Of a DNA stretch of 22,708 nt, positions 1-11,649 are shown in pieces; the stretch's first letter is position 1; every line of letters starts with the position of its first letter. Position numbers and translations under genes: made by a program. This stretch comes from a virus, in the IMG/VR virus record IMGVR_UViG_3300032214_000929, positions 1-22,708 of that record; one strand, 5' to 3'. The notes beneath the pieces were generated by a model, which was given only the letters and a program-made list of their open reading frames with translations, was not told where the DNA came from and made no database searches.

Positions 1-129
1 ATCCATTAAATTACACCAGCAATCTACACAATATGGAGAGCTGTAATACCAATAGATTATATAGGCTCGTTCAAATTTATCGCAATTACAACATCCTACC
101 TGCTGCTCTAATAAATAATTAAACTTCAA
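1..129 (-). CDS. Partial Cys-rich small protein, possible zinc-binding
   Basis: An open frame runs off the left edge. It starts at a TTG (129-127) overlapping the TGA stop of the upstream 97-residue gene, with GGAG seven bases before the TTG, a good ribosome binding site. The visible 43 residues contain a CCxC cluster near residues 12-15 and a CxxCxC cluster near residues 35-40, a spacing that could bind zinc as in small zinc ribbons. The frame stays open to base 1, so the C-terminus is outside the window. Overlap with the upstream stop suggests translational coupling. Function unknown; the zinc-binding idea is inferred from Cys spacing only. Confidence 0.5.
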   Translation of the reverse strand, partial: MKFNYLLEQQVGCCNCDKFERAYIIYWYYSSPYCVDCWCNLMD

Positions 130-419
130 TCCTTTACTCCAATCTTTTCCAAGTGTGCTATTTTCTCTTTATATTCTTTTGCATTAAACTCTTCCAATTG
201 TAATAAAACAGATTGGAATAAAGAATGACGTGATAAAACAATCTTTGGCTCTACATTACAATAAGATTCGAAAGGGATTGTATATGTACCTTTTCCAACT
301 TTCATTTTCAAATCACAAGTAATCCTGTTGAGTTTAATTTCAGAGATATATTTCATCTCAACATTAGTAAAACCCATAGCCTTAAACTTTGCAATTGTGA
401 TAAGTTCTTTGTATGTCAT
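126..419 (-). CDS. Hypothetical protein, 97 residues, probably leaderless
   Basis: I do not recognise a family. The protein starts MTYKELITIAKF, is mixed alpha/beta in character and ends in a charged Glu/Lys-rich helix; no signal peptide or membrane segment is seen. The frame is open further upstream to 689, but that extension would cross the divergent promoter region and overlap the plus-strand gene at 544 throughout. The start at 419 is preferred because a TTGCTA-17-TATAAT promoter (454-426) ends exactly six bases before this ATG and there is no Shine-Dalgarno sequence. The mRNA is therefore predicted to begin at or next to the ATG. Its TGA stop overlaps the TTG start of the Cys-rich ORF downstream. 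Confidence 0.7.
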   Translation of the reverse strand: MTYKELITIAKFKAMGFTNVEMKYISEIKLNRITCDLKMKVGKGTYTIPFESYCNVEPKIVLSRHSLFQSVLLQLEEFNAKEYKEKIAHLEKIGVKD

Positions 420-425
420 AGTACT

Positions 426-454
426 ATTATACACTAAAACGTTATATATAGCAA
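426..454 (-). promoter_or_regulatory. Minus-strand promoter, TTGCTA-17-TATAAT, abutting ATG at 419
   Basis: The -35 TTGCTA lies at 454-449 and the consensus -10 TATAAT at 431-426, with a 17-base spacer. Six bases separate the -10 from the ATG at 419, placing the expected start of transcription on or beside the start codon. The -35 sits in CCTTTGCTA, closely similar to CCTTTGCAA at the promoter of the HTH gene (6353-6325). Confidence 0.7.
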
Positions 455-479
455 AGGCAAAATTATTTTCACTATTTTC

Positions 480-508
480 TTGCAATCCTTTATAACCTAT
501 GCTATTAT
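480..508 (+). promoter_or_regulatory. Plus-strand promoter, TTGCAA-17-TATTAT
   Basis: The -35 TTGCAA lies at 480-485 and the -10 TATTAT at 503-508 with a 17-base spacer. It drives the 82-residue gene at 544 and probably the 48-residue gene behind it. It diverges from the promoter at 426-454. Confidence 0.65.
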
Positions 509-543
509 ATATCTGTTGGTGAGTTGAATGAAAGGTTAAAGTT

Positions 544-792
544 ATGGAAAAGATTTTTACGGTTGAAGAATTAAAAGGTAAAAAGATAAGAACCTTAGAG
601 AAGTTGTTATTAGAGCACAAGGGTATTAGTATTGAGTGTTTTGAAGAGTGGGAAAACATCAACAATATTAAAGTGATTAAATGGCACACTGATGATGATG
701 GACAAACATATGGTTATACCTCAGGTGGATTTACTCAATATTCCCTTAGAGAGTTTGTAATATTTCAATTAACTAGACAAGAAGAAAGATAA
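544..792 (+). CDS. Hypothetical protein, 82 residues
   Basis: No family recognised. It is a small soluble protein with a Lys-rich N-terminal helix and an aromatic/Gly-rich C-terminal half (YGYTSGGFTQYS). The start is supported by AAAGG (531-535), eight bases before the ATG, and a promoter at 480-508. It is followed closely by the 48-residue gene at 813; both leaders share the pattern AAAGGTT...TAAAGTTATG, as if one copied the other. The pair ends at the terminator at 963-994, forming a plus-strand cassette. Small early accessory proteins of phages often look like this, but no function can be assigned. Confidence 0.75.
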   Translation: MEKIFTVEELKGKKIRTLEKLLLEHKGISIECFEEWENINNIKVIKWHTDDDGQTYGYTSGGFTQYSLREFVIFQLTRQEER

Positions 793-812
793 GAAAGGTT
801 GGAGTTAAAGTT

Positions 813-959
813 ATGACGAAGCAAGAAATGATTGAAGTTAAGAAGTTTATTAAGAAGCATCATCCAAAGATTACTAATGCAGAATTGACAGATGAGTTTT
901 TACTAGAGCAGATTAAGTTTTATCGAGTTATGCAATTGAAAAAACAATTATCTAAATAA
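813..959 (+). CDS. Hypothetical small protein, 48 residues
   Basis: ATG at 813 with GGAG at 801-804, eight bases upstream, and stop TAA at 957-959. The protein begins MTKQEMIEVKKFIKKHH and is Lys-rich and probably all helical. It lies 20 bases after the 82-residue gene and directly before a strong terminator, so it is the last gene of a two-gene operon. No family recognised. Its leader, bases 795-813, is complementary without gaps at 15 of 19 positions to a predicted small RNA at 8591-8663. Confidence 0.65.
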   Translation: MTKQEMIEVKKFIKKHHPKITNAELTDEFLLEQIKFYRVMQLKKQLSK

Positions 960-962
960 ACA

Positions 963-1000
963 AATAAGCCTCAGATTTTACTCTGAGGCTTATTCTCTTT
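963..1000. terminator. Bidirectional intrinsic terminator
   Basis: A perfect 13-bp stem (963-975 with 982-994) has a 6-base loop. T-rich tails follow on both strands: TTATTCTCTTT on plus, and TTATTTGTTTATTT on minus. It separates the convergent 48-residue gene and the portal gene and should end both transcripts. Confidence 0.9.
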
Positions 1001-1035
1001 AGGAATATGGAATTAAAGAACCAACAATATTATAC

Positions 1036-2679
1036 CTAATCTTTTATTTTATCTCTTTCTCTTTTTGCAAATTCATAACCTGCATCACCACCCCAAAGAG
1101 ACCAAGCAATTCTGCCATTACTAGGATATCCGTCTTCACCAGGTTTAAATCCTTCTGCTTTTTTATCTACTTCATGTCTTGCAAAAAAACTATACATATC
1201 TAAAATATCCTTGTCTGATAGTTCTTCATTAGCTACAATTTGTCTAGCTCTTGCAATTCCTACATCTGTTCCACCACGACCAAACTCTTCTCTCCATGCT
1301 AACGCTCTTTTTGCCTCATCTTTCATACCTTTATTTGGCATTGCTTTGATTGATCTTACAAAACTATTAGGATTTTGAGTAGAGATTGGTGTGCCTTCTG
1401 GATGATAGATTTGCTCATCAGTTTCATTGTAATCATATCCAAGTAATCTCTTTGCTTCTGCTCTATCTATAATGCCGGATTTGTAGAGTAATTCAGCCCT
1501 TTTAGCTTCTTGGTATCCATCATCTTGTAATGCTTTAATCTTAGAAAGGTCCCAGTTGAAGAAATCACCTGGCATACTTTCTGCATATTCATTTAAAAGT
1601 GATTGAGTAATTGATTCAGCAAACACAGTAAGAAGAGGAATTACACCTTGATTCCATGCACTTTGTTCCGCTTCTTGCATGTTAGAATAGGTAGAATTTT
1701 GAAGACCTGCAGATAAGTTAAGGACCATACAGTTGAGTCCCATTGCGCTACTTACTCTTTCTTCCGGTGTATGACGAATAGCATCAAGAGCCATTTCATT
1801 AGGGCTGAATGATATCTTCTCGACTTTAAATGGACCAGACATAACAGCAACACTACCAGCATTGTCTCCGGTAAAACTGTCTTCTAAACGTCTTTTCATT
1901 GTTCTAAGGTCGTCATCTGAAATATCTACAATTTGATCAGTAGCATCAGGACTAACCATAATTGACGGAAGACCACTGTTATTCATCAATCCAAAAGCAC
2001 AAGAAGAAGCTACGTTATCTGTGGCTATTTCTCTTAGCGTACTCATTAAAGGTGATCGTCCAAGTCTATAGTCAACTGGATCACGACCGTAGGCAATGTG
2101 AATGATATCTTCCACAGCGACAGAATATGGAGTACCGTCAACAACATAATTATAATGTGTGATTGGATTTATATTATCTCCAACAGGCTGACATTGTTGA
2201 CTTGGTAAAAACTGCAATCCTATTACTGGACCGCCTTTAGATTTTCTTATTTTTCTGATATAAACGTTACCATAAATCTTGTAATCTATGATACAATTAG
2301 ACCAGAAACGAGTTGGAGCTAATTGGTATTGAGGATTTGCTAAGAGTGCAAGCATAGGATGTTCAGGATATTTTTCATATTCTGATTCTGATCCCTCTAC
2401 TAATCTATAAACCATTGGAAGCGCTTGAGAAAATGCTCTGATATAATAGTCCATTGCAATACTAACAATGGAGTTAAGCATCAAGTCACCAGCTATATTT
2501 TGCCAGTCTTTGTTTGTATTAGGTAAACGTCGAGAAAGGTTAGCAAATAAGTCTTGTAAACCAATTCCAGATAAATAGTTAGCTCCACGCATAACAGTAG
2601 GCAATGGAAGGTTTTGGCTTATATTTGCAATTGGTTGGTTCTTTGCTGATCTACCTAAAAAACGGTCAAATATTCCCAT
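1036..2679 (-). CDS. Phage portal protein (HK97 family) with extra C-terminal module
   Basis: The portal forms the dodecameric ring at the capsid vertex through which DNA enters and leaves and to which the tail joins. Residues up to about 440 show the HK97-family portal pattern: an N-terminal clip-forming part, GNVYIRKIRK and LQFLPSQQCQPV beta segments, the GRSPLM region, and a long C-terminal helix rich in N/Q (SNMQEAEQSAWNQGVIPL). At 547 residues it is longer than many portals of this family. The excess is a distinct module from about residue 450 (KRALAWREEFGRGG, ARARQIVANEELS, SFFARHEVDKKAEGF, GYPSNGRIAWSLWGGDAG), which I recognise as a stretch recurring in phage head-related proteins but cannot name. 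It is the last gene of the packaging operon, behind two HNH genes and before the terminator at 963-994. GAGG lies 12 bases before the ATG, a weak site. Confidence 0.93.
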   Translation of the reverse strand: MGIFDRFLGRSAKNQPIANISQNLPLPTVMRGANYLSGIGLQDLFANLSRRLPNTNKDWQNIAGDLMLNSIVSIAMDYYIRAFSQALPMVYRLVEGSESEYEKYPEHPMLALLANPQYQLAPTRFWSNCIIDYKIYGNVYIRKIRKSKGGPVIGLQFLPSQQCQPVGDNINPITHYNYVVDGTPYSVAVEDIIHIAYGRDPVDYRLGRSPLMSTLREIATDNVASSCAFGLMNNSGLPSIMVSPDATDQIVDISDDDLRTMKRRLEDSFTGDNAGSVAVMSGPFKVEKISFSPNEMALDAIRHTPEERVSSAMGLNCMVLNLSAGLQNSTYSNMQEAEQSAWNQGVIPLLTVFAESITQSLLNEYAESMPGDFFNWDLSKIKALQDDGYQEAKRAELLYKSGIIDRAEAKRLLGYDYNETDEQIYHPEGTPISTQNPNSFVRSIKAMPNKGMKDEAKRALAWREEFGRGGTDVGIARARQIVANEELSDKDILDMYSFFARHEVDKKAEGFKPGEDGYPSNGRIAWSLWGGDAGYEFAKRERDKIKD

Positions 2680-2714
2680 GTGTTTTAAAATCCTCGATGT
2701 AATCTAAAGTTATT

Positions 2715-3182
2715 TTACGATATATCTAAGTGCTTCCAATTTTTGCCAGTTTTAATGACAGATATGGTTCTAAAATCAACACCATATTCTGTAGCTAATT
2801 CTTGCCCTAAACCAAAATAATAGTTTTGTAATCTTTTTTTAATTTCTATTACTTGTTCAACTGATAATTTTTGCATACAATTAGTACCAGCATAAGACAT
2901 ATCAATCATATTACTGCTGCGTGTGTCTTGTCTTAAATGGCGAGGCGAGACACAGGATGAATTAGAACAGTTGTGGCATATTTCTAATTCTGGATCTAAT
3001 GCACCAATGAAATATTCGTAAGAAAAACGATGTGCTTTCATCAAAACTTTACCAACTCGAAATTGACCATATCCGTGTTGATTTTTACATGCTTGCCAGA
3101 TCCAACAACCGGTAGCTTCATCAATCACATATTTCTTATTGAATCTTAAAATTGGTTCTACTGCTTTTCTTCCTCTTGCCAT
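2715..3182 (-). CDS. HNH endonuclease (HNH_3-like), copy 1
   Basis: A free-standing HNH nuclease of 155 residues. Visible features in order: GCWIWQ and HGYGQFRV (about residues 25-42), AHRFSYEYFIG (about 50-60), the metal-binding core ICHNCSNSSCVSPRHL (about 68-83), and a C-terminal helix-turn-helix (ELATEYGVDFRTISVIKTG) followed by NWKHL, as in homing-type HNH proteins. The paired Cys residues suggest structural zinc. The next gene is a paralogue with the same layout. Both sit between large terminase and portal, where HNH genes are common; some such proteins assist terminase in cos-type packaging and others are selfish homing nucleases, and the sequence alone does not decide. It begins four bases after the upstream stop with no clear ribosome binding site, so coupling is likely. 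Confidence 0.88.
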   Translation of the reverse strand: MARGRKAVEPILRFNKKYVIDEATGCWIWQACKNQHGYGQFRVGKVLMKAHRFSYEYFIGALDPELEICHNCSNSSCVSPRHLRQDTRSSNMIDMSYAGTNCMQKLSVEQVIEIKKRLQNYYFGLGQELATEYGVDFRTISVIKTGKNWKHLDIS

Positions 3183-3186
3183 GTTC

Positions 3187-3654
3187 TTATATTACTATGT
3201 AAGACCACATTCTTCCTGTTTTTATGCTTGAAATAGTACTTGGATTAACTTTATAAAAATGAGCAATATCTTTGATTTGTCCTCTGTAATAATTCTTTAA
3301 TGCTTTTTTAATTTCTATAACTTCTTCAATTGATAAAACTTGAGCTGCATGTGTCCTAAAATATGATTTATCAATACAATTAGATGATTGAGTATCTTGT
3401 CTCAAATGATTATAGTTTACACATTTACGATTATTACATGAATGACAACATACAAATCCTTTAATTAATGGGCCAACGAAAGTCTCATAAGAAAATCTGT
3501 GTGCTTTAATTTGTTTATTTGTATTTAATCGAAAATTACCATATCCATCTTTATCTAATCCACCCTGCCAATTCCAGCAACCAGTCTCTTCATCAATTAT
3601 ATATTTTTCATTAAATCTTATTTTGGGATCTAATGATTTCCGTATTCTTTTCAT
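3187..3654 (-). CDS. HNH endonuclease (HNH_3-like), copy 2
   Basis: A paralogue of the gene at 2715-3182 and also 155 residues. It has the same order of elements: GCWNWQ, DGYGNFRL, AHRFSYETFVG, the core CCHSCNNRKCVNYNHL, shared LRQDTxSSNxID, then a helix-turn-helix (DIAHFYKVNPSTISSIKTG) and MWSYI. The two copies match along their whole length but have clearly diverged, so this is an old tandem duplication or two related insertions, not a recent copy. Its ATG overlaps the TGA of the large terminase (ATGA), making it translationally coupled to the packaging motor. A role in genome processing alongside terminase or in homing is possible; neither is shown. Confidence 0.88.
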   Translation of the reverse strand: MKRIRKSLDPKIRFNEKYIIDEETGCWNWQGGLDKDGYGNFRLNTNKQIKAHRFSYETFVGPLIKGFVCCHSCNNRKCVNYNHLRQDTQSSNCIDKSYFRTHAAQVLSIEEVIEIKKALKNYYRGQIKDIAHFYKVNPSTISSIKTGRMWSYIVI

Positions 3655-4982
3655 ATTGCCCTAAACTTAAATACTTTCTTTGTTGTCAATTCGTTAAATG
3701 CATCACTACAAGCATCCACAATATCGTCGTGGCTATCATATGGAAAGGTTTGAAATTCATTGAGTAAATCTTTATTCCAAATTGCTTTCTTCATAAAAAC
3801 ATTTCCATTATTTATTTGAACTGATAATGGTTCTGCCCTTACTTCTTTGCTTTTCGTAGGTCTAACAAACTCAATTATATAACCTGCAAGCATCTTAGTC
3901 CAGTAAAATGTGAGTGATTTCCCAGCGCTTCCGGGGTCAAGAGGTAAAGTAATCTTAACATCTTTACCATCAACTTCTGCAATTCTTAAAATCTTATCGT
4001 CTCTATCTTTTGTTCCAACCTGTTCACGCCATAAATCTAACAAGTAATAACAGTTATTGACATCTATTCCCATTAAAACACCAACAGAGTAGTCATTTTT
4101 TCCACTAGAGCTTGCAATATCATATGACCGAACAGTTCTAACCATTTTTGGAATATCGTCAATAATTTTGATAGAATCAGCATTAAACATTGCTCCTTCT
4201 TTAGGGATAGGTTTACCCATATATAAAGCACTAAAACCCATACTTCCCATAACAGATTTAATATCTAAATAATCTTGAGTTGAATATCTCTCAGGCCATA
4301 TAGATTCATTTAATTCTCTTCCTAGTAAATCATTTTCAGGATCATCACAAATAGCAGGAATATTTAAAACTACAAATGATGGGTCTAGCTCTGTTGCGAA
4401 AGCTATCACATCATCATTTGACCATCTAGTATTAATTAAAACCATTGCACCATTTGGCTCTAAACGTGAATACAAATCCTCACGGTAGAAGTCACGAATC
4501 TTTTCTTTCATAACAGGTGAATTAGCTTCTTCTCTGTTACGAATAAGGTCATCAGCCAGAATTAGGTTAAATCCGATTGAGGTTCTTGGATTATTAACTG
4601 AACCAACAAAATAAGTAGATCCATTAGGGATAGACCATTCATCTATACTTTGGTGGCTATTATTAAGTCCAGTTCTTTCAAGGCATATTTGTCTAGATTT
4701 GCGTGAGAATCTTCTTGATATGTTCTGAGAGTATCCACACACTAAAACATTAGAATTAGAATAATTTTCTAGGTAAAAAGAGGCAAATCTTAAGCACGTT
4801 TCACTCTTACCGCTCCTAGGTGGCAACGAGATAGCTAATCTTTTAATTTTTCCATCTGCTACTTGTTGTAAGTAATTGCAAATTAATGTTAAATGTTTTG
4901 CATTTACATTCCAATTGTTAGGCGTTGTTTCTGCTAAATACTTATGAAATTGGTTTTTCGTCGTCATCGATGATTTCTGCAT
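3651..4982 (-). CDS. terL: Terminase large subunit (packaging ATPase and nuclease)
   Basis: This is the motor that pumps DNA through the portal and cuts it. With the start used here (443 residues) the Walker A motif LPPRSGKSE is near residues 53-61 and the Walker B motif LILADD near 140-145. They are followed by the arginine-rich segment NREEANSPVMKEKIRDFYRED and a coupling motif region around INTRWS. The C-terminal RNase H-like nuclease shows SYDIASS with an acidic Asp, and a closing DDIVDACSDAF. The frame is open back to an ATG at 5123, but that would overlap the small terminase by 182 bases. Starts at 4982 or 4967 reduce the overlap to 41 or 26 bases; neither has a strong ribosome binding site, so the exact start is uncertain. 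It ends in ATGA with the HNH gene downstream. Confidence 0.93.
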   Translation of the reverse strand: MQKSSMTTKNQFHKYLAETTPNNWNVNAKHLTLICNYLQQVADGKIKRLAISLPPRSGKSETCLRFASFYLENYSNSNVLVCGYSQNISRRFSRKSRQICLERTGLNNSHQSIDEWSIPNGSTYFVGSVNNPRTSIGFNLILADDLIRNREEANSPVMKEKIRDFYREDLYSRLEPNGAMVLINTRWSNDDVIAFATELDPSFVVLNIPAICDDPENDLLGRELNESIWPERYSTQDYLDIKSVMGSMGFSALYMGKPIPKEGAMFNADSIKIIDDIPKMVRTVRSYDIASSSGKNDYSVGVLMGIDVNNCYYLLDLWREQVGTKDRDDKILRIAEVDGKDVKITLPLDPGSAGKSLTFYWTKMLAGYIIEFVRPTKSKEVRAEPLSVQINNGNVFMKKAIWNKDLLNEFQTFPYDSHDDIVDACSDAFNELTTKKVFKFRAI

Positions 4983-5370
4983 CGATAGTTTCTTCTCTTG
5001 AGGTAAGTTGTTTTTGGTTGATGTTGTTAGAGGCTTGGAGAATTGAAAGAGTCCAACATTCAAGTCTCTCGTGTAAGCTTGCAATGTCTCGTGCGGTATT
5101 ACTTCTGATATAATCTTTTTCAACTGCCACCTCTGCTATTGCATTTAAAGCGTCTAAATGTTTTTTTAATGAAACAGCTATATACTCTGATAAATTATCT
5201 CTTAAATCTAAAATAGCTCCAGAATATTTACCATCAATAATATTATCTTTAATTCTCCAGATAGCAGATTTTGATACCCCAGTTTGTCTATGGATTTCAT
5301 TAATAGTCATGCCCTGTAATAATAAAGCAATTACTTCTGGTTTCTTTTCTTCTGTTAGATTAGTACTCAT
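4942..5370 (-). CDS. terS: Terminase small subunit, HTH DNA-binding
   Basis: A 142-residue protein with an N-terminal helix-turn-helix (GMTINEIHRQTGVSKSAIW, about residues 20-38), a middle helical part rich in Leu/Ile that could form the oligomer core, and an acidic C-terminal tail (EIIDDDEKPIS) of the kind that contacts the large subunit. Size, position directly before the large terminase and HTH content all fit the small terminase, which recognises the packaging start site. No pairwise identity to a named phage can be claimed. Its ATG overlaps the TGA of the sigma gene by four bases, and its end overlaps the start of the large subunit, so all three are coupled. Confidence 0.82.
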   Translation of the reverse strand: MSTNLTEEKKPEVIALLLQGMTINEIHRQTGVSKSAIWRIKDNIIDGKYSGAILDLRDNLSEYIAVSLKKHLDALNAIAEVAVEKDYIRSNTARDIASLHERLECWTLSILQASNNINQKQLTSREETIDAEIIDDDEKPIS

Positions 5371-6134
5371 TTTAAAAAATCCAGTAAACTTTCCAAACCT
5401 TTATTTCTCAATTTAACGATTGCTCTATTAATAACACCATCGCTATCAATACCAAGGATTTTATCAACTTCTTTATAAAAATGTGGTTTATGTCCATTCA
5501 ATCCAAACTTTAACTCAATTGCCTGTTTTTCCAGTGGTTTTAGTGTATCTAGGATCTCATCAATACATATCTTAATCTCAGGATTTTTAATGCTTTCATC
5601 CACTCTGTCATGTATTAAAGATAAGTTATCAATAGTATATAATTTTCTTATTTCTAATGCCTTTTTGAGATCATTAAGACTATACCTTTCATCTGTAAGT
5701 GTCATTAAGAATTCATCCGAGTATTCTTTATCTTCATCTAAATGGTTGATTCTAAGTTTGGCTAAGTTGAGATGGGCTGGAATCTTAATCAAATTATTGT
5801 GATGTTCTAGTGCTCTTCTTAATCGCCCTAATATATAGTGATAGCAAAAAGTGTGGAACTTGAATCCTTTGCTTGGATCATAACAGTCTGCAGCTGCTAT
5901 TAATCCTTCAACTCCGTACATTACAAGGTCATCGTAATCTATGTTACTCCACCTATAATTCTTACAAATCTTATGGACTACTAGCATATTTAGTTCAATG
6001 TATTCGTCTAGGGCTTTCTCTCTATATTTAGTTTGTAATTGAGATGACAAAAAAGCATCTTGGGATAATGTTGGCCTTCCCTCATTATCTTTTTTAATGC
6101 TGTAATACTCAGGCCATCTTCTTATTTTTGTCAT
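5367..6134 (-). CDS. Phage-encoded sigma-70-family factor
   Basis: A 255-residue RNA polymerase sigma factor. Region 2 is clear at about residues 46-112: IDYDDLVMYGVEGLIAAADC, then YDPSKGFKFHTFCYHYILGR, the core-binding and -10-melting helices. A region 3-like start follows (IKIPAHLNLAK). Region 4 with its helix-turn-helix is at about 192-255 (LKPLEKQAIELKFGLNG ... ILGIDSDGVINRAIVKLRN). Lacking region 1.1 and being short, it resembles alternative (group 3) sigma factors. It would redirect host RNA polymerase, plausibly to late phage promoters, but its target promoters are not identified here. It overlaps the upstream HTH gene by 26 bases and the small terminase by four, so it is made together with the packaging proteins. 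No strong ribosome binding site is seen; coupling to the HTH gene is likely. Confidence 0.88.
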   Translation of the reverse strand: MTKIRRWPEYYSIKKDNEGRPTLSQDAFLSSQLQTKYREKALDEYIELNMLVVHKICKNYRWSNIDYDDLVMYGVEGLIAAADCYDPSKGFKFHTFCYHYILGRLRRALEHHNNLIKIPAHLNLAKLRINHLDEDKEYSDEFLMTLTDERYSLNDLKKALEIRKLYTIDNLSLIHDRVDESIKNPEIKICIDEILDTLKPLEKQAIELKFGLNGHKPHFYKEVDKILGIDSDGVINRAIVKLRNKGLESLLDFLK

Positions 6135-6318
6135 ATATATATAATAAAAGCTCTGTTTCTTCGACCCCTAATGCTATTGCTAATTTACTTATTGTTGATG
6201 GACGTGGCATACACCTTCCACTCATCCATCTACTTATTAATGGTTGAGCTACTCCAAGCTTTTCCGCTATTTCCATTTGTGTTAAATCAGTGATCAACAA
6301 GTCTTTTCTTAGTGCCAT
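6109..6318 (-). CDS. Small XRE/Cro-CI-type HTH regulator, probably leaderless
   Basis: A 69-residue single-domain DNA-binding protein with the Cro/CI fold: TQMEIAEKLGVAQPLISRWM, then SGRCMPRPSTISKLAIALGV, covering the usual five helices. There is no dimerisation or cleavage domain, so it is Cro-like rather than a full CI repressor. It is the first gene of the packaging operon and lies opposite a divergent plus-strand gene, the usual place for a regulator that controls both promoters and itself. A TTGCAA-17-TATAAT promoter ends six bases before its ATG, so the mRNA is probably leaderless, as known for lambda cI from PRM; AAAGG lies between the -10 and ATG but would not be in the transcript. 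Its targets are inferred only. Confidence 0.85.
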   Translation of the reverse strand: MALRKDLLITDLTQMEIAEKLGVAQPLISRWMSGRCMPRPSTISKLAIALGVEETELLLYIYDKNKKMA

Positions 6319-6324
6319 GCCTTT

Positions 6325-6353
6325 ATTATAACATTTTTCTATATATTTTGCAA
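6325..6353 (-). promoter_or_regulatory. Minus-strand promoter, TTGCAA-17-TATAAT, of the packaging operon
   Basis: The -35 TTGCAA is at 6353-6348 and the consensus -10 TATAAT at 6330-6325 with a 17-base spacer. The ATG of the HTH gene follows after six bases. The -35 is embedded in CCTTTGCAA, matching the CCTTTGCTA of the promoter at 426-454. The -10 reads GTTATAAT, an inverted copy of the divergent promoter's -10 at 6382-6389. Confidence 0.75.
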
Positions 6354-6360
6354 AGGATAT

Positions 6361-6389
6361 TTGACATTTAGAACAGTATTCGTTATAAT
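6361..6389 (+). promoter_or_regulatory. Plus-strand consensus promoter, TTGACA-17-TATAAT
   Basis: A perfect sigma-70-type promoter: TTGACA at 6361-6366, a 17-base spacer, TATAAT at 6384-6389. The expected start of transcription, near 6396, leaves a leader of only about 12 bases that is little more than the GAGG ribosome binding site (6396-6399) of the gene at 6408. It diverges from the HTH gene promoter; their -35 boxes are only seven bases apart, so a regulator bound between them could affect both. Confidence 0.85.
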
Positions 6390-6407
6390 GTTAGTGAGGT
6401 TAGGAAT

Positions 6408-6809
6408 ATGAAAAAGAAAATTAAGAGTTTGATTACTGATGATATGTTTGAAGAAAGAGAAGTAAATCCAATAGTTAATATTTTTGGTAATTATAGAATT
6501 ATTGGTGATTTAGAATTAGTAGCTGTAAATAACTATGAAAAAGTTAAAGTAAGTTTATATTTTAATTATATGAGTAAGTCTTTTTTCTTAGTTAAATTGT
6601 TTCAATCAGGCAAATATCATGTAGATTTTTTCAATTACAATACTTATGGTTTAAAAGAATTGTGTACACTTGACTATTTAAATAACCAAGAGATTTGTAG
6701 ATTTGAAGAAGATGATAAGAGTAATGGATTATTGTTTTATAGCAATTACGACAATATGTTTTTGTTGGTTAATTCAAGTGGTTTTAATCTTAGGATGAGA
6801 AAGGTTTAG
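6408..6809 (+). CDS. Hypothetical protein, 133 residues, in a self-contained cassette
   Basis: No family recognised. The protein starts with a Lys-rich stretch (MKKKIKSLITDDMF) and is then rich in aromatic and Asn residues in alternating patterns suggesting beta strands (GNYRIIGDLELVAV, SFFLVKLFQSGKYHVDFF); there is no signal peptide or membrane helix. GAGG lies eight bases before the ATG. It has its own consensus promoter (6361-6389) and a strong terminator (6826-6854), so it is expressed independently of the surrounding minus-strand operons, as phage moron genes are. Its divergence from the HTH regulator suggests it is an early gene that regulator controls; that is inference. Confidence 0.75.
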   Translation: MKKKIKSLITDDMFEEREVNPIVNIFGNYRIIGDLELVAVNNYEKVKVSLYFNYMSKSFFLVKLFQSGKYHVDFFNYNTYGLKELCTLDYLNNQEICRFEEDDKSNGLLFYSNYDNMFLLVNSSGFNLRMRKV

Positions 6810-6825
6810 ACTCTTGTAACAACTT

Positions 6826-6855
6826 AAAAAACCCCAGCAAAACTGGGGTTTTTTT
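6826..6855. terminator. Bidirectional intrinsic terminator
   Basis: A 12-bp perfect stem (AAAAAACCCCAG with CTGGGGTTTTTT, 6826-6837 and 6843-6854) has a 5-base loop. The outer A and T runs give a U-tract on either strand. It serves the convergent genes at 6408-6809 and 6857-7744. Confidence 0.93.
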
Positions 6856-6856
6856 A

Positions 6857-7744
6857 TTACTTCTTCAGTGCGTCTTTAACTCTCATATGCTTTAGTCTAT
6901 ATATAAGAGTCATTTTTCCAATTCCTGATTTATTAGACATATAGGTGAGACTAAATAAATCATAGTTCCCAGCTGGTTCTTTTGCATAATAACCAGCTCT
7001 TTTAGTTTTTGGACTTAGTATTTTAGTTTTGCCTTTAAACTCTATCTTCCAATATTTATTTTCAAATACTTCACGATTTTTGATAAAGCAATAATTTATA
7101 TACTTTTTTTGTTGATCATTAAGTCTTAAGAAATCTAAATAATATGAATCCATTTTCCCAGGATTTCTCCATACCAAATCTGCTATAGCTTTTATTACAG
7201 AAGGCATATCAATTTTTCCATCAGTAGTAGGAATTATATGTTGAGGCATGAATAGTTCTTTTTCAGGCTTTTTATTTTTACTACCTTTAGGTCTACCTGC
7301 ACTTCTTTTTTCTATCTGTTCAGTAATTTCTAATTTTACTGGTTCAAGAACTGGTTGCATTTCTTTTACTTTCAATTTTGTGCAATATTTAACAATGTAC
7401 TGATCAATATAACTTTCTAAAATACTTATGTAAGGATATGCCAAAAGATCATTAGTAGATAATTCTTCTGATAGAACGTTATTTTTAACCTGTTCTTCTA
7501 ACCAAAAATGTAATTTACTAAACTCATAATTTCCATCATTATAAGATCTCTGATTAAAATTGTGTTTAGCATCAGGAAAAAGTTTGTAATTTTTTTTCAT
7601 ATTTAAATTATCATTCCCTAGCCTGCGAAAAACTGCATTACCAAATTCATAAAATAAATTGATAGTAGTTTTCTTTTTTACTTTTGTTTTGATTCCATAA
7701 GGATCACCAATAGGATCTCCATAAGACATTTCATAATTCATCAT
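6857..7744 (-). CDS. DNA-binding-like protein with AT-hook motif, 295 residues, function unknown
   Basis: The middle has a basic AT-hook-like stretch (RSAGRPKGSKNKKP, about residues 147-160), which suggests minor-groove binding to AT-rich DNA. The C-terminal 30 residues (SNKSGIGKMTLIYRL, then RVKDALKK) match the short helix-turn-helix ending often found on phage homing nucleases and related DNA-binding proteins. The N-terminal half is not recognised, and I see no HNH or GIY-YIG active site. A DNA-binding or regulatory role is likely; a degenerate homing endonuclease is the alternative. AAAGGA lies about ten bases before the ATG. It has its own promoter at 7778-7806 with an 8-bp dyad inside it, so it is probably repressible, possibly by itself. 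It ends just before the terminator at 6826-6854. Confidence 0.75.
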   Translation of the reverse strand: MMNYEMSYGDPIGDPYGIKTKVKKKTTINLFYEFGNAVFRRLGNDNLNMKKNYKLFPDAKHNFNQRSYNDGNYEFSKLHFWLEEQVKNNVLSEELSTNDLLAYPYISILESYIDQYIVKYCTKLKVKEMQPVLEPVKLEITEQIEKRSAGRPKGSKNKKPEKELFMPQHIIPTTDGKIDMPSVIKAIADLVWRNPGKMDSYYLDFLRLNDQQKKYINYCFIKNREVFENKYWKIEFKGKTKILSPKTKRAGYYAKEPAGNYDLFSLTYMSNKSGIGKMTLIYRLKHMRVKDALKK

Positions 7745-7777
7745 TCCAATTTCCTTTCTTACATCTACAATACCATA

Positions 7778-7806
7778 AATCTATTCACTTGCAAATAGAT
7801 TGTCAA
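7778..7806 (-). promoter_or_regulatory. Minus-strand promoter with embedded dyad operator
   Basis: TTGACA at 7806-7801 and TAGATT at 7783-7778 are 17 bases apart. A perfect 8-bp inverted repeat, AATCTATT (7778-7785) and AATAGATT (7794-7801) with an 8-base gap, fills the promoter from -10 to the edge of -35. A dimeric repressor bound there would block RNA polymerase. It drives the 295-residue gene. Confidence 0.65.
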
Positions 7807-7943
7807 AATACTTATTTGAAGATTTATATGATTCTTATAAGTTCGAATATCTAGTATTATAAATCGTAATATATTTTCTTATACGTATTGTTCTGTAAGA
7901 ATTATTCTAAGGCTAAATATTGATTCCCTTGTTTAAGCATTCT

Positions 7944-7963
7944 AAAGCAATTAAAAGCAATTA
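7944..7963. repeat. Perfect 10-bp tandem duplication
   Basis: AAAGCAATTA occurs twice head to tail. With two copies only, it may be a protein-binding site or chance in AT-rich DNA. Confidence 0.6.
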
Positions 7964-8033
7964 GAAGAGGAAGACTTCGTCATTAATAAAAGAATTCAAT
8001 CTTAAGAGAGTTTGAATACAAGAAAAATTAGAT

Positions 8034-8062
8034 TTGACAACTATTACAAATACAGTTATAAT
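8034..8062 (+). promoter_or_regulatory. Plus-strand consensus promoter, TTGACA-17-TATAAT, abutting ATG at 8069
   Basis: TTGACA at 8034-8039, a 17-base spacer and TATAAT at 8057-8062. Six bases later is the ATG at 8069, so transcription should start on or beside the start codon. The -10 region (GTTATAATG) is identical to that of the promoter at 6361-6389. Confidence 0.85.
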
Positions 8063-8068
8063 GATGAC

Positions 8069-8275
8069 ATGAGTAAAGAAGAAGAATTGATTGTAGATCA
8101 ATGGTTAGAATTAATGGATAGCTATGATTTAGAAAAGATCAAAAAAGAAAACGATGAATTTGAAAAGAAGAAAGCTAAGGATTATAAAGAGATCAATCTT
8201 AAATACAAAATGATCTCTTTAAAAGAATTGAAGAAAAAGTATACAAAAGAGTATTTAGATGAGAGTTGCATGTAA
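8069..8275 (+). CDS. Hypothetical charged helical protein, 68 residues, probably leaderless
   Basis: Starts MSKEEELIVDQW and is very rich in Lys and Glu in heptad-like spacing, so probably a single long helix or coiled coil; no family recognised. The frame is open back to a TTG at 8012, but a perfect promoter (8034-8062) lies inside that extension and no good ribosome binding site precedes the TTG. The ATG at 8069, six bases after the -10, is therefore preferred and the mRNA is probably leaderless. The terminator at 8321-8356 ends the transcript, making this another self-contained plus-strand cassette between the two late operons. Confidence 0.7.
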   Translation: MSKEEELIVDQWLELMDSYDLEKIKKENDEFEKKKAKDYKEINLKYKMISLKELKKKYTKEYLDESCM

Positions 8276-8412: not shown

Positions 8413-8574
8413 TTAGCAAAGTAAGATATCCTCAATCACGTTAAAACGACTTGTTTTTCTAGTGATTTCCTCTATAATTTGTTGTTGTAATAAGATGAAC
8501 GTTAATTGATCCTTATCAGTTAAAATTGATAGGAAAAAACAAGGCTCAGGAGTGTATTGATTTTTTTTAGACAT
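8413..8574 (-). CDS. Possible small protein, 53 residues
   Basis: An ATG-initiated frame starting MSKKNQYTPEPC with an amphipathic helical middle (DQLTFILLQQQIIEEITRKT) and codon use like neighbouring genes. It lies 3' of the tail operon on the same strand. There is no ribosome binding site; TATTAT ends five bases before the ATG but has no good -35 partner. The plus-strand promoter of the predicted small RNA overlaps its start. It may be real, a remnant, or chance. Confidence 0.4.
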   Translation of the reverse strand: MSKKNQYTPEPCFFLSILTDKDQLTFILLQQQIIEEITRKTSRFNVIEDILLC

Positions 8575-8584
8575 CTGGTATAAT
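8557..8584 (+). promoter_or_regulatory. Plus-strand promoter with extended -10
   Basis: TTGATT at 8557-8562, a 16-base spacer and TGGTATAAT ending at 8584, which is an extended -10 with a consensus hexamer. No protein gene follows on the plus strand; a terminator lies about 50 bases beyond the expected start, so its product should be a short RNA. Confidence 0.6.
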
Positions 8585-8590
8585 ATTAGT

Positions 8591-8663
8591 GTACTTACAA
8601 TTGATATTTAACTTTTCTCCCAACCTTAAGAACGATCCTCTAAGAAATTAGAGGATTTTTTTT
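8591..8663 (+). ncRNA. Predicted small RNA, about 73 nt
   Basis: It is defined by the promoter at 8557-8584 and the intrinsic terminator at 8635-8663. The 5' part (8591-8634) is mostly unpaired and has a pyrimidine-rich stretch, CTTTTCTCCCAACCTT (8612-8627), that resembles an anti-Shine-Dalgarno sequence. The 3' part is the terminator hairpin with a T8 tail, the layout of many bacterial antisense small RNAs. No open frame of note lies within it. Bases 8609-8627 are complementary to the leader and first start-codon base of the gene at 813. Confidence 0.45.
8635..8663 (+). terminator. Intrinsic terminator, plus strand only
   Basis: A perfect 9-bp stem (ATCCTCTAA and TTAGAGGAT) has a GAAA loop and a T8 run (8656-8663). 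On minus it is followed by CGTTCTTAAGG, not a U-tract, so it does not serve the tail operon. It implies a plus-strand transcript starting after the previous terminator at 8321-8356. Confidence 0.9.
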
Positions 8664-8664
8664 G

Positions 8665-11649
8665 TTATGAGAAGGTTTGACCGTAGTTATCACTTTTGAC
8701 TACTGTAAGTCCATTGGTTGTATGGTTATATACTAAGTAAGGAACATCATCTCTCCAGTAACAACCAAGTCCACTATCTTCTACATTTCCAGTAATTACA
8801 TTAGAAGCAGCAGTTGTAATATTTCCTTGAGCATCAATAATTACTCTTTGAATATTTGAAGATGATGTTCTAAAAAAGATAATTTGAGTACCATTATTAT
8901 TAATTGCTATTGCAGGTGTAGTTCCATTTCCAATTACTGTACCCATAGTTGCTACTCCATCTACAAAATCGTCTAAAACATATCTTAAAATTGCACTATC
9001 AGATGCTCTTTCTGTTACTATAATCATTTGGTTAGTAAAAGTAGGTTCTAACCAAGCTACTGAAACATTATTCATTCCATTGATAGATGTTGGTAATGTA
9101 TCGAATGTTGAAAAATCAGTAGTATCACTAAAAATTAGCTCTACGTTATCAATATTTATTCTTGCAATACATGACTGATAAAATCCACTTAAATCTGCAG
9201 AAAGTATGTTTACTCCAGCAGGTACTGGTATTACATAAAAAGAACCACGAAATCTTTTAGCTGTAAATAGTTTAGTGATAGGAATTGTTCCTATAGAATA
9301 ACCTATCCTAGCTGCTTGTTCAGGTAATCCTCCAGGTAATCCAGTTTGATAAGAACCTAATATATCAGTAGTTCCTTGTCCCCATAAGTTACCACTAGTA
9401 TCTTCTAAATTAACAATTTCACCTGATTGTTGCTCTTGAACAAGTCCATGAGCAACAGACCTTAAACAAGCAAAAGAATACAGTAAAAGCTGTGTTTCTC
9501 CAGGTGCTTCTAGCTTAAAAGCATCAAAGTAATCTGGAGGATAATTGCAGTTTATACGATCAAAAATCATTTGAGTGTAAACATCCCTATCTTCAGATTC
9601 TTGACTTAAATCTCTAAGAATTGAAAAACTACTATTACCAGCAATACACTGTTGTCCAAAGCCATTTAGCCATGAAGCATAAGCATTATCTTTATCAAAA
9701 ACATATTGTAAAAAACCAGGGCTACTGCTTGGATTAAAAGAACCAGAAGCAGTCCAACCTATATGTATTTTTCCACCATCATATCCAACTCTGTTATTAA
9801 TATTAGTGCATAAGTCATCAACAGATAGTTTTATAGTATTAACAACACTTCCACCAAGAGTTAATTCATGAAGTAAATCGTATTCTTCTTCGTTCTTTCC
9901 ACTAATATCTTGTTCCCAAAATCTTCTTCCAAAATATTGCCTAGTATCACTATCTGTTTGCACTTTAACAAAACCATTATTAATAGATGCACCAACAGAT
10001 TGAAATCTTGAAAATGGAGCTACAAATGAGGCTTTTCCAGTATTATCTTCACGAGTTAATTTAATCTGTGAAATTAATATGTTTCCATTGTTTAAAATTG
10101 ATCCTATTTGACCAATTCCATACATATCCTCATTAATGATCCTTGCACTAGCAGCACCTGGAGGATAAGCAGCATTATATCTAGGATAAGGATTGTCTTG
10201 ACCTTGTAAATCTAAAAAGTTAGTATGTGCTATTCCTGCAAAACAAAGATCAATTCTTTTAGTTTGAGATCCAGTGTTCCATACTAAATCTTTTTCTAAG
10301 ATAGTAGTTGAACCATCAGAAGTAATGATAAGTTTAGCTGGTTCTGGTGAAGCACTAGCAGATGCACCAGTAATATCTAAATACCTATATCCAGACAAAT
10401 TGTATCTATTAAGTGAATTGTAAGTTCTTGTATTTCCAGCACCAGCAAGAATAGTGTTTTTGGAATGATAAATAGTAGCACCAGGTTTAAACCATCCTCT
10501 AAATGGTAATCTAGTAGCGTATTCATAATCATCATTAGCAATTAAAGATGCTGAAGAAATAGTATTTTCTATATATCCACTTGGTAAATTATCAAATGCT
10601 AAACTTTGATTGTTGGGAACACCGCCAATTTGGATGTTAGAATTAAAACTATACTTTTGGAATAATTCTTCTTCTTCAAAATTACCACCAGAAACAGTTA
10701 TAGTTCTTCCAGTAGTATCAAACTTAGTAATCGTTACATCAAGATCATCTGGATAAGAACTTTGCCAAGAATGGATAATTCCTTTGTTTTTAATATTTCT
10801 TTCTAATACAACGCTAGTATTAGCTTCAATAAAGTTTAATACAGATCCACCAAAAGCATCATCAGTACCTTGAACTTTTGCATCAACTATATTTGTTTGA
10901 TAAAAATAGTTATTGCTATCTATTTCATGTAAATATGTGTAATCTGGTATTGCAAGTGCATTAAGAGTTAAATTGCTTAATTGTAAATCTTGAACACCAG
11001 CTGTTGTACCTTTTGAAAATAATCTAGTATTTATTGTGTAATCATAATCAGTAAATGCTTCAGAAAGGAGTACATGAAAGTTTTCATTAACAATACCAGT
11101 ATCTAAACCAGTAACAGTAACAGTAAGATTTGAATTAGCATTTACTGGCATTTTTTCAAACAAGTCTAATGTTAAATAAGGTGGATGATATCCATAAGAT
11201 TCATCTTGAGTTATTGTTACTAGAGGATCTGAACCTAAGAATGCTGTTGCTATAAATGTAATTGGAAAAGAAACTTCTTTATAGTTGTAAACTAAAGGAT
11301 TAACTAATTCTGTACCAAGTTCTATCCTTCCAGATTTAACATAACCATCTGGATAAACAAGATCTACATCACAAACAAAAGTCCATCTCCAAAATCCAAA
11401 ATTAGGAGCATCAGCAGAACCTTTCAAAATCATTGCAAAATTAAGCTGAATTTCATATCCAAAATGATTTCCTATGTATACTCTTTCAACTATTCTACTA
11501 TATTCATAAAACTCTGGTGGTCTTGCAAATGATGGATCAACAGCAAGATATTTAATAGTAAAATTACCATTAAAAGCAAACCTACTTTGAATAGGTCTTA
11601 AAGTTATATCATCACCATAAGTTCCAGATATATTTAAAGGACTAGGCAT
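8665..11649 (-). CDS. Large tail-tip / receptor-binding candidate, 994 residues
   Basis: The last gene of the tail operon. The long protein is rich in beta-strand, Gly, Asn and Ser segments, as in tail-tip and adhesin proteins. The N-terminal 250 or so residues (YIGNHFGYEIQLNFAMILKG and nearby) look like a structured attachment domain. The C-terminus ends exactly in SDNYGQTFS, an Asp-box (BNR) motif of sialidase-type beta-propellers, preceded by repeating strand segments (TPAIAINNNGTQIIFF, GCYWRDDVPYLVYN). No catalytic residues are identified, so binding rather than cleavage is the safer reading. It starts at the TAATG overlap with the 1308-residue gene. Receptor binding is inferred from operon position and the C-terminal propeller. 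Confidence 0.65.
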   Translation of the reverse strand: MPSPLNISGTYGDDITLRPIQSRFAFNGNFTIKYLAVDPSFARPPEFYEYSRIVERVYIGNHFGYEIQLNFAMILKGSADAPNFGFWRWTFVCDVDLVYPDGYVKSGRIELGTELVNPLVYNYKEVSFPITFIATAFLGSDPLVTITQDESYGYHPPYLTLDLFEKMPVNANSNLTVTVTGLDTGIVNENFHVLLSEAFTDYDYTINTRLFSKGTTAGVQDLQLSNLTLNALAIPDYTYLHEIDSNNYFYQTNIVDAKVQGTDDAFGGSVLNFIEANTSVVLERNIKNKGIIHSWQSSYPDDLDVTITKFDTTGRTITVSGGNFEEEELFQKYSFNSNIQIGGVPNNQSLAFDNLPSGYIENTISSASLIANDDYEYATRLPFRGWFKPGATIYHSKNTILAGAGNTRTYNSLNRYNLSGYRYLDITGASASASPEPAKLIITSDGSTTILEKDLVWNTGSQTKRIDLCFAGIAHTNFLDLQGQDNPYPRYNAAYPPGAASARIINEDMYGIGQIGSILNNGNILISQIKLTREDNTGKASFVAPFSRFQSVGASINNGFVKVQTDSDTRQYFGRRFWEQDISGKNEEEYDLLHELTLGGSVVNTIKLSVDDLCTNINNRVGYDGGKIHIGWTASGSFNPSSSPGFLQYVFDKDNAYASWLNGFGQQCIAGNSSFSILRDLSQESEDRDVYTQMIFDRINCNYPPDYFDAFKLEAPGETQLLLYSFACLRSVAHGLVQEQQSGEIVNLEDTSGNLWGQGTTDILGSYQTGLPGGLPEQAARIGYSIGTIPITKLFTAKRFRGSFYVIPVPAGVNILSADLSGFYQSCIARINIDNVELIFSDTTDFSTFDTLPTSINGMNNVSVAWLEPTFTNQMIIVTERASDSAILRYVLDDFVDGVATMGTVIGNGTTPAIAINNNGTQIIFFRTSSSNIQRVIIDAQGNITTAASNVITGNVEDSGLGCYWRDDVPYLVYNHTTNGLTVVKSDNYGQTFS

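Follow-up and report, generated by a model that had tools for sequence, protein, structure and literature searches.

A conserved six-base distance between TATAAT and ATG predicts leaderless messages in an uncultivated family of tailed phages

In the viral DNA considered here (record IMGVR_UViG_3300032214_000929, positions 1 to 22,708, 33% GC; this whole stretch of 22,708 nucleotides is referred to as the window), three genes carry a TATAAT element that ends exactly six bases before the ATG, which raises the question of whether their mRNAs begin at the AUG itself. A preliminary description of the sequence had predicted that they do. The window is a fragment of a tailed phage, encoding a portal protein, a large terminase and long tail-region proteins. 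Among 50,697 cultured phage records none matches it closely, and the nearest cultured phages by large terminase (TerL) and portal share only about 30-35% identity and have mixed hosts. Scans of genome contigs with the portal and TerL, made in search of a host or prophage, returned no match. No integrase was recognised among the window proteins scanned (the contigs are fragments), no tRNAs were found in 16 pieces of relatives, and an Rfam search of the window gave no match. Relatives were collected through scans of viral contigs, and 19 IMG/VR contigs were read whole, which with the window amount to 331 kb; this set is partly redundant and holds 22 distinct promoter sequences.

A pattern search of the window places TATAAT-N6-ATG at exactly three sites and nowhere else, 417-431 (-), 6316-6330 (-) and 8057-8071 (+), and these are the three genes named in the preliminary description. 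The genes and their promoters are the following.

126..419, minus strand: 97-aa gene with a leaderless-type start at ATG 419 and the spacer hexamer AGTACT; homologs with TATAAT-N6-ATG in 13 contigs
426..454, minus strand: promoter of the 97-aa gene, TTGCTA (454-449), N17, TATAAT (431-426)
6109..6318, minus strand: 69-aa Cro/CI-type HTH regulator, ATG 6318; Pfam HTH_3 (2.6e-10), PHROG transcriptional regulators
6325..6353, minus strand: promoter of the HTH gene, TTGCAA (6353-6348), N17, TATAAT (6330-6325)
8034..8062, plus strand: promoter of the 68-aa gene, TTGACA (8034-8039), N17, TATAAT (8057-8062), a full consensus
8069..8275, plus strand: 68-aa gene with a leaderless-type start at ATG 8069

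The −35 elements at 17-base spacing that had been described are present at all three sites (TTGCTA, TTGCAA and TTGACA), and the stated absence of a ribosome binding site in a leader holds for each, the six-base spacer being too short for a leader or a Shine-Dalgarno sequence. The pattern TTG-N20-TATAAT has four sites in the window, namely the three leaderless-type promoters and the leadered promoter of a 133-aa gene that starts at 6408. This gene and another starting at 544 had been put forward as leadered contrasts, and both indeed have a promoter, a leader and Shine-Dalgarno-like bases.

480..792, plus strand: leadered promoter and 82-aa gene from 544, TTGCAA-N17-TATTAT (480-508)
6361..6809, plus strand: divergent consensus promoter and 133-aa gene from 6408, TTGACA-N17-TATAAT (6361-6389)

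At the 544 gene, 35 bases lie between TATTAT and the ATG and the leader is about 28 nt long and contains AAAGG, while at the 6408 gene the distance from TATAAT is 18 bases, with a short leader that contains AGG. Leaderless-type and leadered promoters stand side by side in each genome. Small leadered cassettes with near-identical promoters and leaders (TTGCAA or TTGCAT-N17-TATTAT, followed by AAGG) recur in the vicinity of the portal and 97-aa genes; the series was located at 480-959 (+) in the window and at G008:5039-5691, G005:18784-19143 and G014:4344 in relatives.

The HTH domain of the 69-aa regulator spans residues 11-57, and the C-terminal dimerisation/cleavage domain of a lambda cI-type repressor is absent from this protein. 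Its gene overlaps that of a phage sigma-like protein, the second in an operon headed by the HTH promoter, which a terminator-like hairpin at 995-962 closes.

5367..6134, minus strand: 255-aa phage sigma-like protein; Pfam Sigma70_r2 (5.1e-9), phrog_351 RNA polymerase sigma factor (3.3e-33)
1036..5370, minus strand: rest of the operon, comprising a probable small terminase, the large terminase, two HNH proteins and the portal

To judge from this arrangement, the packaging operon is probably under the leaderless-type promoter of the HTH gene. The sigma-like protein of the terminase operon recurs throughout the family, with identities as low as 39%. The two HNH proteins, adjacent paralogs of 155 aa at 2715-3182 and 3187-3654 (-), lie between the terminase and the portal, and their number and place vary in relatives. 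The 97-aa protein has no match in Pfam or PHROG, and its predicted fold is of low confidence and has no convincing match in the PDB. The 68-aa protein is modelled as two helices (mean pLDDT 81) and has a weak antitoxin-like match (phrog_1381, 4e-4). Beyond it, a 53-aa ORF at 8413-8574 (-) shows 85% identity in G004-G006, versus 52-57% for the neighbouring 68-aa gene, and could be either a conserved gene or a piece of a non-coding element. The interval 8557-8665 (+) holds a promoter-like TTGATT-N16-TATAAT (8557-8584), behind which comes a terminator-like hairpin (8634-8657); it is a candidate for an RNA of about 75 nt, its −10 and terminator being kept in G004, G005 and G006.

Taken alone, the bare motif in the window is weak evidence and close to chance. 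The window has 39 TATAAT sites, for which 0.73 ATGs are expected at any single spacing and three are seen at spacing six; when spacings 3-9 are pooled, four are seen against 5.9 expected, with no enrichment. The sites gain significance because −35 elements are present, because they fall at real gene starts and because they are conserved in relatives. Across the 331 kb of the family, TATAAT with an ORF of 50 aa or more behind it occurs 32 times at spacing 6, four times at 5 and once at 7, and not at all at spacings 8-14; from 15 on, where the leadered genes set in, each spacing has 0-8. The histogram is thus bimodal, with a peak at six, a gap at 8-14 and the leadered genes at 15 and more. Four of the 32 sites at spacing six were set aside, three of which fall within an ORF resembling a capsid protease and the fourth in a different frame. 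Five unrelated low-GC phages that served as controls (205 kb) have three spacing-6 sites, none with a −35 element, and at least two of these lie inside annotated genes (of Staphylococcus and Latilactobacillus phages).

Loss of the six-base spacing in relatives had been named as an observation that would speak against leaderless messages. Across the window and its relatives the spacing is exact at 28 gene starts from four families, which are spread over 17 contigs: 13 starts belong to the 97-aa family, four to the 68-aa family, four to the HTH family and seven to a 75-aa gene. The last precedes the HTH gene in another lineage and takes its place as the first gene, and in G002, G003 and G007 the HTH gene follows it with an ATGA overlap. 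At all 28 starts, the first T of TATAAT lies at −12, in agreement with the TANNNT core by which leaderless (TA-led) genes are recognised, the start codon is ATG (which was itself part of the search pattern), and a Shine-Dalgarno sequence at working distance is absent. The spacer hexamers diverge in sequence (18 distinct) and are constant in length, although hexamer and spacing counts are not independent, as the families share ancestry. The −10 and spacer of the 97-aa gene are kept in 10 close orthologs. The spacing at the HTH gene is kept in G004, G005 and G006, with the hexamers AAAGGC, AGAGGT and ACTGGT, and in the same three contigs TATAAT-N6-ATG is kept at orthologs of the 68-aa gene whose proteins are 52-56% identical and have diverged N termini.

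There are exceptions. The 97-aa homolog of G014 (G014:5964) carries two ATGs in a row, at four and seven bases from the −10, and that of G015/G016 lies behind coding-like sequence without an adjoining TATAAT-N6 promoter. The HTH gene of G017 has a leader and a Shine-Dalgarno site, and another gene family in G015/G016 (G015:24442 (-); G016:10586) has a spacing of five. The layout can therefore be lost or shifted, but where a gene of these families comes first behind a TATAAT promoter, its spacing is nearly always exactly six.

In sigma70 promoters, the seventh base after the −10 is the usual start position for transcription, and a pyrimidine before an A is the usual initiator context. All 18 distinct hexamers end in C or T, which puts a pyrimidine at −1 and an A at +1 of the AUG. 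The leadered promoters of the same phages, whose cassettes are partly paralogous, for the most part show T as the sixth and G as the seventh base after the −10. The start position of transcription appears, from these bases, to be common to both kinds of promoter, with only the placement of the ATG differing. The reading frame gives no alternative upstream start in the four copies of the HTH gene and in the 97-aa homologs of G017, G018 and G020, where no in-frame start lies between the upstream stop and the ATG. In G002, G003, G007 and G011, a terminator-like hairpin (read by eye) lies directly upstream of the 97-aa promoter, arguing against read-through leaders. The −35 of the divergent promoter of the 6408 gene and that of the HTH gene are only 7 bp apart, which together with the hairpin leaves little room for a longer leader. 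A start one or two bases upstream of the A would, however, give a tiny leader rather than none.

It is thus very likely that sigma70-type transcription starts at the AUG of the three genes and yields leaderless mRNAs, and the earlier prediction to this effect is strongly supported by the exact and conserved spacing. A sigma70-type RNA polymerase would bind the −35 and −10 elements across the 17-base spacer and initiate seven bases past the −10, where the A of the ATG stands, so that the mRNA would begin with 5'-AUG. Translation would then proceed mostly by a 70S ribosome that recognises the 5'-terminal AUG without Shine-Dalgarno contact, and the HTH protein, which is Cro/CI-like, would repress these promoters. 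We infer the 5' ends, the use of the host sigma70, translation by 70S ribosomes and repression by the HTH protein, drawing for the transcription step on the sequence and for the translation step on the literature, in which leaderless mRNAs undergo 70S initiation on a 5'-terminal AUG (review PMC9031893).

The promoters share a further element, which bears on how they might be controlled. ATAAC precedes TATAAT at a distance of exactly nine bases in 26 copies in the family, many of them orthologs, versus 0-4 copies at other distances, and it is found in leaderless and leadered promoters alike; examples are 429-454 (-) in the window, L090 (G015) 2009 and L091 (G015:23559), with others in many relatives. 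A GT before the −10 makes the element readable as a dyad, ATAAC-N7-GTTAT, the right half of which is partly forced by the −10 itself. One guess is that this dyad may be an operator of the HTH protein. The preliminary description had called the three genes unlinked, and this has to be qualified, as in regulation they are not wholly so: they seemingly have a promoter element in common with leadered genes, and the HTH gene heads the sigma-terminase-portal operon.

Several other explanations of the layout deserve consideration. Promoters might simply be compact, producing leaders of 1-5 nt or mixed starts because intergenic space is small, without selection for a 5'-terminal AUG. The intergenic regions are indeed short, the choice of start can wobble by one or two bases, and the spacings of four and seven in G014 and of five in the G015/G016 family are of the kind expected. 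Compactness nevertheless predicts scattered spacings, in place of 32 at six and none at 8-14, and the pyrimidine that ends every hexamer fits a start exactly at the A, so that this explanation is distinctly unlikely. It is very improbable that TATAAT is kept as the operator of a repressor and not as a promoter, with transcripts that start further upstream. The recurrent ATAAC-N9-TATAAT and the overlap of its dyad with the −10 are consistent with such a role, but −35 hexamers are present at N17, leadered promoters contain the element as well, the 7 bp between the divergent −35s at the HTH gene leave no room for an upstream start, and an operator would fix neither the distance to the ATG nor the pyrimidine that precedes it. 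Coincidence in an AT-rich genome would account for a motif that is near chance in the window alone (0.73 expected, three seen); it was ruled out by shuffles, spacing histograms, control phages and relatives, since the layout is kept in these, the neighbouring spacings are empty and the five unrelated low-GC phages have no such peak, and its probability is practically nil.

A further proposal would add to leaderless transcription rather than replace it, namely that the leaderless genes form a regulon translated preferentially when 30S initiation is impaired during infection. A fixed set of small genes, together with the sigma/packaging operon, would across the phage be leaderless and be made when canonical initiation is down, as in late infection, starvation or host shut-off. 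There is a precedent in phiYS40, with leaderless middle and late mRNAs, raised IF2 and lowered IF3 (PMC3594737), and both promoter types coexist in each of the present genomes. On the other side, no initiation-altering gene was identified among the proteins scanned, and the genes concerned include the one that opens the packaging operon, along with small genes that have no function in common. By analogy with phiYS40 such a regulon is conceivable, but it is on balance unlikely.

Leaderless transcription from these promoters, if correct, means that comparative sequence alone points to an uncultivated phage family that keeps several predicted leaderless genes over long evolutionary times. Leaderless genes beside leadered ones, behind the same kind of promoter, offer a naturally paired comparison for the question of why a phage keeps some messages leaderless, and in calling start codons and promoters in such phages one should reckon with ATGs that coincide with the start of transcription. 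Leaderless phage mRNAs are already known (lambda cI, PaaR2, phiYS40), if uncommon, and what is new is this well-conserved case in a phage family. The lambda cI mRNA from PRM is a known leaderless mRNA of a phage repressor. For PaaR2, of a cryptic prophage of E. coli O157:H7, 5' RACE placed the transcription start at the AUG (PMC8630535). The present case resembles both in having a phage HTH regulator with a Cro/CI-type domain (HTH_3, 2.6e-10), an AUG start (predicted here) and a short divergent intergenic region, of 97 bp at paaR2/ydaS (PMC8630535) and 89 bp here. It differs from them in that the layout extends to non-HTH families of the same genome and in that the 69-aa HTH gene heads a sigma-terminase-portal operon.

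In phiYS40, a phage of Thermus thermophilus, many middle and late mRNAs are leaderless, and a shift in IF2 and IF3 has been proposed (PMC3594737). As in phiYS40, several leaderless genes (predicted here) occur in one phage beside leadered ones; there, the evidence is experimental and the host is Thermus, whereas here the set is small, predicted from sequence and served by full −35/−10 promoters. Leaderless genes in bacteria are marked by a TANNNT that precedes the start by about 12 bp (Zheng 2011, PMC3160421), and in Deinococcus it is common for a −10 element to lie 6-7 bp ahead of an ORF (PMC12340547). The phage genes share both features, a TANNNT some 12 bp before the start and a −10 at 6-7 bp before the ORF, with the TA-led genes of Actinobacteria and Deinococcus-Thermus (PMC3160421, PMC12340547). 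Those genes, however, are cellular and most frequent in high-GC groups, whereas the genes described here belong to AT-rich phages and combine a −35 with a consensus −10.
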